This document shows, piece by piece, positions 7,864 through 8,505 of a stretch of 64,000 nt of DNA; within the stretch, counting starts at the first letter, position 1, and every line of letters begins with the position of its first letter. The position numbers were made by a program, and so were the translations under genes. The DNA is from Alphaproteobacteria bacterium (GTDB lineage Bacteria; Pseudomonadota; Alphaproteobacteria; JAAEOK01), in NCBI GenBank assembly GCA_024244705.1, contig JAAEOK010000103.1, forward strand, positions 1 through 64,000, written 5' to 3'. The notes under the pieces are model-generated. The model was not told where the DNA came from. It made no database searches and was given only the letters and a program-made list of their open reading frames with translations.

Positions 7864-8505
7864 ATGGTATCTATTGGAATAATAGGAAAAAAAATAGGAA
7901 TGACTCAAATTTTTAATAATAAAGGTTTTGCTATTCCTGTCACTATAATTAAAGCAGGACCTTGCATTGTTACACAAATAAAAAAAAAATCTAAATATAA
8001 TCGTGAATCTATTCAAATAGGTTTCTTTTTATGTAAAGATAATAAATTAACACAGCCCCAATTAGGTCATTTAAAAAAAAATAATTTACCTACAGTAAAA
8101 TTTTTAAAGGAATTTCATGTGAGTAATATAAATAAATTTTTTATAAATCAATGTTTTACCGTTAATATATTTTCGACTGGAGATTTTGTTGATATCACAG
8201 CTAAAAGTATTGGAAAAGGTTTTACTGGAAATCAAAAAAGACATAATTTTAAAAGAGGTCCTATGAGTCATGGTTCAAAAGATCATCGTGCACCAGGTTC
8301 TATTGGAGCTTGAACTACACCAGGAAGGGTTTTTCCAGGTAAAAAAATGTCGGGTCGACACGGTTTCAAACAAGTTACAAAAAAAAACCTAGAAATAATG
8401 GCAATTAATGAAAAAAATAATTTATTAATTTTAAAAGGATCATTACCTGGAAAACAAGGAAATTTAGTTAATATTATTGAATCGAAAAAAAAAGTTAGAA
8501 AATAA
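7864..8505 (+). CDS. rpl3: 50S ribosomal protein L3, interrupted by an in-frame TGA
   Basis: A core large-subunit protein near the peptidyl-transferase centre. The frame from ATG 7864 runs to TAA 8503-8505 (213 codons, normal L3 length) except for TGA at 8311-8313 (codon 150). Both sides are well conserved: MVSIGIIGKKIGMTQIF at the start, HRAPGSIGA just before the TGA, and [18 protein letters not shown] just after. In other plastids the motif is GSIGAGTTPGR, so TGA stands where Gly (GGA) is expected, one base away. It could be a sequencing error, an inactivating mutation, stop read-through or RNA editing. Trp elsewhere in the window is written TGG, so a general code change is unlikely. Confidence 0.85.

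Follow-up and report, generated by a model that had tools for sequence, protein, structure and literature searches.

An in-frame TGA in the rpl3 gene of an apparent non-photosynthetic plastid genome within a bacterial MAG

How does a ribosomal protein gene that is otherwise intact come to carry a stop codon within its reading frame? The question is raised by rpl3, the gene for ribosomal protein uL3, which lies at 7864..8505 on the plus strand of the window (the whole stretch of DNA that was analysed, 64,000 bases). Translation of positions 7858-8505 gives a frame of 213 codons that begins with ATG at 7864, meets an in-frame TGA at 8311-8313 (codon 150, plus strand, next base A) and ends with TAA at 8503-8505, and the 63 codons that follow the TGA (8314..8502, plus strand) are open and conserved. 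With the TGA read through, the product matches the NCBIfam model TIGR03625 (L3_bact) over 201 of its 202 positions at 246.6 bits, whereas the part before the TGA alone reaches only positions 1-146 at 170.3 bits; a full-length match to the bacterial L3 model is obtained only by reading through. The best solved relatives of the product in the PDB are chloroplast L3 proteins. The gene is the first of an S10/spc ribosomal cluster that continues with rpl4-rpl23-rpl2-rps19, as judged by the order and translations of the open reading frames. The one in rpl3 stands alone, with no other internal TGA in the 71 genes counted on the contig, which together have 19,757 codons. Of 1,908 random single-base changes in the gene, 96 (about 5%) create a stop, and therefore one consensus error or one mutation could suffice to explain it, with no wider pattern.

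The contig on which rpl3 lies is 73,181 bp long with 24.7% GC, and the window is its first 64,000 bases. It is part of a 4.5-Mb bacterial MAG, whose own bacterial L3 is found on another contig. Its ends cut into rRNA genes on the minus strand, 16S at the start and 23S at the end, which fits a circle of about 77 kb completed by a single rRNA operon; a second single-copy region between direct repeats may exist unseen. Translation, gene order and in part family models indicate about 71 protein genes, which include ribosomal proteins, rpoA/B/C1/C2, the atp set, tatC, secA/Y, dnaB, dnaK, ftsH, clpC and tufA, as well as tsf, ilvB/H, acpP, thiG, sufB/C and petF; all eight atp genes are kept together with tatC. 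No PsaA/B or PsbA/D family matches were found anywhere in the assembly, and a control cyanobacterium did give such matches. The contig has the look of a red-lineage plastid genome, nearly closed and lacking psaA and psbA, that contaminates the bacterial MAG, and it most likely belongs to a non-photosynthetic plastid of red-algal origin. A haptophyte or cryptophyte origin seems unlikely because its rpl36 is of the plastid type, which we take to argue against both groups. Searches for related rpl3 genes returned only cyanobacteria and melainabacterial-type bacteria among GTDB contigs, no related plastid rpl3 in viral contigs and no plastid-like match in 58 relatives, 398 genomes of the phylum and 385 genomes of the class, and they therefore brought up no second copy of the plastid. 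A search of a plasmid collection gave one short match, a bacterial one. In two bacterial genomes of one genus (L085/L086; G080:C55, G184:C181), a TAG lies inside the L3-matched span, where it may be the normal end of the gene.

The non-photosynthetic plastids of ochrophytes, namely those of chrysophytes (PMC7511666), Pteridomonas (PMC7728698) and Leucomyxa (PMC11528492), likewise lack psaA/B and psbA/D while keeping housekeeping genes. The present contig differs from them in that it keeps the full atp set, tatC, ilvB/H, thiG, acpP, sufB/C, dnaB and secA, and in that its clpC is single, unsplit and very long. This clpC, at contig positions 61180-67206 (L004:1180-7206), is one open frame of 2008 aa, in which about 1,100 aa that lack the usual ClpC motifs, as judged from the sequence, separate the two AAA parts. 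A 222-aa open frame at L004:7370-8038, in the same numbering, has membrane-like stretches and no Pfam or NCBIfam match, and is perhaps ycf60-like. Another open frame of 631 aa, on the minus strand between rpl12 and rps20 (window 26738-28633), has no Pfam or NCBIfam match either. The rpoA gene (window 18350-19060) encodes only 236 aa, and the C-terminal domain of the RNA polymerase alpha subunit seems to be missing because family matches end near position 228 of 315. A tRNA-Leu(UAA) at window 52510-52855 was found only when introns were allowed, and it has an intron of 258 nt.

The residue expected at codon 150 can be read from related L3 proteins. Gly occupies this column in all 37 cyanobacterial and melainabacterial-type L3 sequences, a set fetched by a motif that ends before the column, so that the column itself was unselected, and spinach chloroplast L3 has Gly there as well. 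Proteobacterial-type L3 carries Cys, Arg, Asn or Ser at this position. Trp was not found there in any of the L3 sequences compared, which comprise the cyanobacterial and melainabacterial type, the Proteobacterial type and spinach chloroplast. Because of the Gly in all 37 sequences and in spinach, a G-to-T change from GGA to TGA would be the simplest one-base origin of the stop. Codons for Cys (TGT/TGC), Arg (CGA/AGA) and Trp (TGG) are also one change from TGA, and bacterial L3 proteins do have Cys or Arg at this column. The first-pass annotation had described the locus as plastid rpl3, with an in-frame TGA at a Gly position, an intact frame on both sides running to the terminal TAA, and GGA as the likely ancestor of the stop. 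Its account of the gene, the frame and the residue agrees with the translation, the model match, the chloroplast relatives and the alignment, and its one-base origin stands as the simplest of several.

Nothing in the remainder of the gene looks decayed. Of the residues that are invariant in cyanobacterial-type L3, the part upstream of the TGA keeps 43 of 50 and the part downstream 12 of 13, the latter with neither a second stop nor a break in the frame. In a neutral simulation with AT-biased change, only 4% of runs stayed free of new stops with the conserved residues kept at 5% divergence, and only 0.2% did so at 10% divergence. Taken together, the simulation and the residues kept after the TGA indicate that rpl3, if dead, has been dead only briefly. 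A fully decayed pseudogene is ruled out, as the frame and the invariant residues persist. Judged from these patterns, the gene around the TGA is, or until very recently was, under constraint.

The way in which the contig uses UGA elsewhere bears on whether the codon could have a meaning. The 19,757 codons include 126 TGG and a single TGA, and in two-fold codon pairs ending in A or G the share of A is 87-93%. A free UGA=Trp code would at this bias make TGA the majority codon, and it follows that UGA is not a sense codon in general; a general code in which UGA means Trp or Gly is ruled out by the codon counts and the tRNA set. As a terminator UGA is nearly absent as well, since the 71 genes end in 66 TAA, 3 TAG and 2 TGA, and each TGA stop has a TAA in the same frame no more than three codons behind it. 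One of these ends atpF (47235..47777, plus strand), with TAA directly after it (TGATAA, window 47775-47780), and the other ends a hypothetical open reading frame of 147 aa without a Pfam match (39353..39796, plus strand), with the TAA three codons on (window 39794-39805). No tRNA with a UCA anticodon was found on the contig with introns allowed, about 4 kb of the rRNA operon lying outside it. The tRNA-Trp(CCA) at 24821..24893 (plus strand) is a candidate misreader of UGA. Its anticodon stem forms every pair from 27-43 to 31-39, and the 4-bp stem that was considered for it is thus absent, all five pairs being present. It carries A24, which may be the ordinary plastid state; a G24A change in tRNA-Trp is reported to ease UGA read-through (PMC13092985). 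No stimulatory RNA structure beyond chance was detected 3' of the rpl3 TGA (z -0.31). The first-pass annotation saw no read-through context in the ACT that follows the TGA, and this is not borne out, as in E. coli a UGA with A behind it is described as the context that tRNA-Trp misreads most readily (Engelberg-Kulka 1981, cited in PMC5289835). Its overall interpretation is thus sound on the gene, the frame and the Gly position and unsupported on the read-through context, and it missed that the contig is an organelle genome in a bacterial MAG, that it looks non-photosynthetic and that UGA is close to disuse.

All the explanations invoke rare events, and the weights given to them here are judgements and were not computed. 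The explanation ranked first takes the TGA for a single G-to-T difference in the consensus of a gene that functions, be it an unfixed variant or a mistake of sequencing or assembly; it is put forward tentatively, at somewhat less than an even chance, and is placed first because it asks for no more than that one changed base in a metagenomic consensus. Under it, rpl3 would be a functional and selected plastid gene in which the TGA is erroneous or carried by a minority of the population, the true codon 150 would probably be GGA (Gly), the reads at 8311 would not be uniformly T, and L3 would be made normally with no need of recoding. The isolation of the stop among 71 genes, the intact frame with its invariant residues on both sides, the Gly column and the ease with which one stray base makes a stop all favour this explanation, as does the lack of a UCA tRNA, an altered anticodon stem or a structure 3' of the TGA. 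As the contig came along as a by-product of a bacterial MAG, its consensus was probably made without organelle curation. Against this, the other long, A-rich frames of the contig are all intact, which points to a good consensus, and with UGA so rarely used as a stop, a genuine sense UGA would have room to arise.

If the TGA is real, the near-cognate tRNA-Trp(CCA) could decode it as Trp with some efficiency, in an incipient capture of UGA at a single codon and not a full change of code. This is a serious candidate, albeit an unlikely one. UGA ends only two genes, both with TAA behind it, the base after the rpl3 UGA is the A reported to favour misreading (PMC5289835), trnW has A24 (reported to ease read-through when it arises by G24A, though it may be ordinary in plastids), and UGA=Trp has arisen several times in reduced plastids, with examples in Coccidia, Piridium, Chromera and corallicolids (PMC6722601). 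Those systems, like the present one, are AT-rich plastids with a UGA inside the frame of a conserved gene. They differ in that here there is one UGA in all the codons counted, it stands at a Gly and not a Trp column, and the 126 UGG codons are intact. Reading through would thus place Trp where the L3 sequences compared never have it, with no second UGA to be read, a normal anticodon stem and no UCA tRNA found. In another system, UGA is read by a near-cognate tRNA-Trp(CCA) with a 4-bp anticodon stem (PMC13092985); there, as here, tRNA-Trp(CCA) is the sole tRNA-Trp encoded and UGA is rare, but the stem of the contig's trnW has all five pairs. The fuller scenario, in which a non-photosynthetic red-lineage plastid stands at the first step of UGA capture, with UGA stops nearly gone and TAA-backed and an essential rpl3 relying on near-cognate decoding by tRNA-Trp(CCA), is quite improbable.

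A real TGA could also mean that the plastid copy became a pseudogene very recently, its role taken over by a nuclear L3 targeted to the plastid, and we regard this as distinctly unlikely. Spinach chloroplast L3 is annotated as a longer chain in the style of a nuclear-encoded precursor, and its gene lies in the nucleus. Losses of ribosomal protein genes are known from some non-photosynthetic plastids (PMC7511666). The absence of decay after the TGA, the rarity with which neutral drift in the simulation left such a gene unmarked, and the intact state of all neighbouring ribosomal genes speak against replacement. A further explanation, and a very improbable one, is RNA editing, in which a TGA truly encoded in the DNA would be changed in the mRNA to a codon such as GGA, CGA or UGG. 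There is a close parallel in the green dinoflagellate TGD, where a single UGA in an otherwise intact essential plastid gene, rpoB, was first called a pseudogene and is edited to CGA (PMC12574857), and Arg is found at the codon 150 column in bacteria. However, the correction in TGD was seen in transcripts, whereas the present case is known from DNA alone and from a plastid of another kind; nothing on the contig suggests a dinoflagellate, a literature search found no precedent for editing in this kind of plastid, and only one site in 71 genes would need it. Finally, rpl3 could be split into a 149-aa L3 and a separate C-terminal piece that starts at a downstream ATG, as rpoB is split in some non-photosynthetic plastids (PMC11528492). 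An ATG does lie 12 codons past the TGA with an AGG shortly upstream, and the part after the TGA is conserved, yet AGG and ATG are both fixed by conserved codons (PGKKM) and thus are no evidence of a start. A split would also cut a conserved loop, and it is extremely unlikely.

In-frame UGA in plastid genes is an already known phenomenon. Should the rpl3 TGA prove real, the plastid would be making an essential ribosomal protein by way of a codon that is otherwise a near-absent stop, and the locus would directly test how a stop codon first acquires a meaning as an organelle genome shrinks. If it is instead an error, the value lies in the contig, which is apparently a near-complete and so far unplaced non-photosynthetic plastid genome that contaminates a bacterial MAG. 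The contig is arguably more useful than the codon that drew attention to it.
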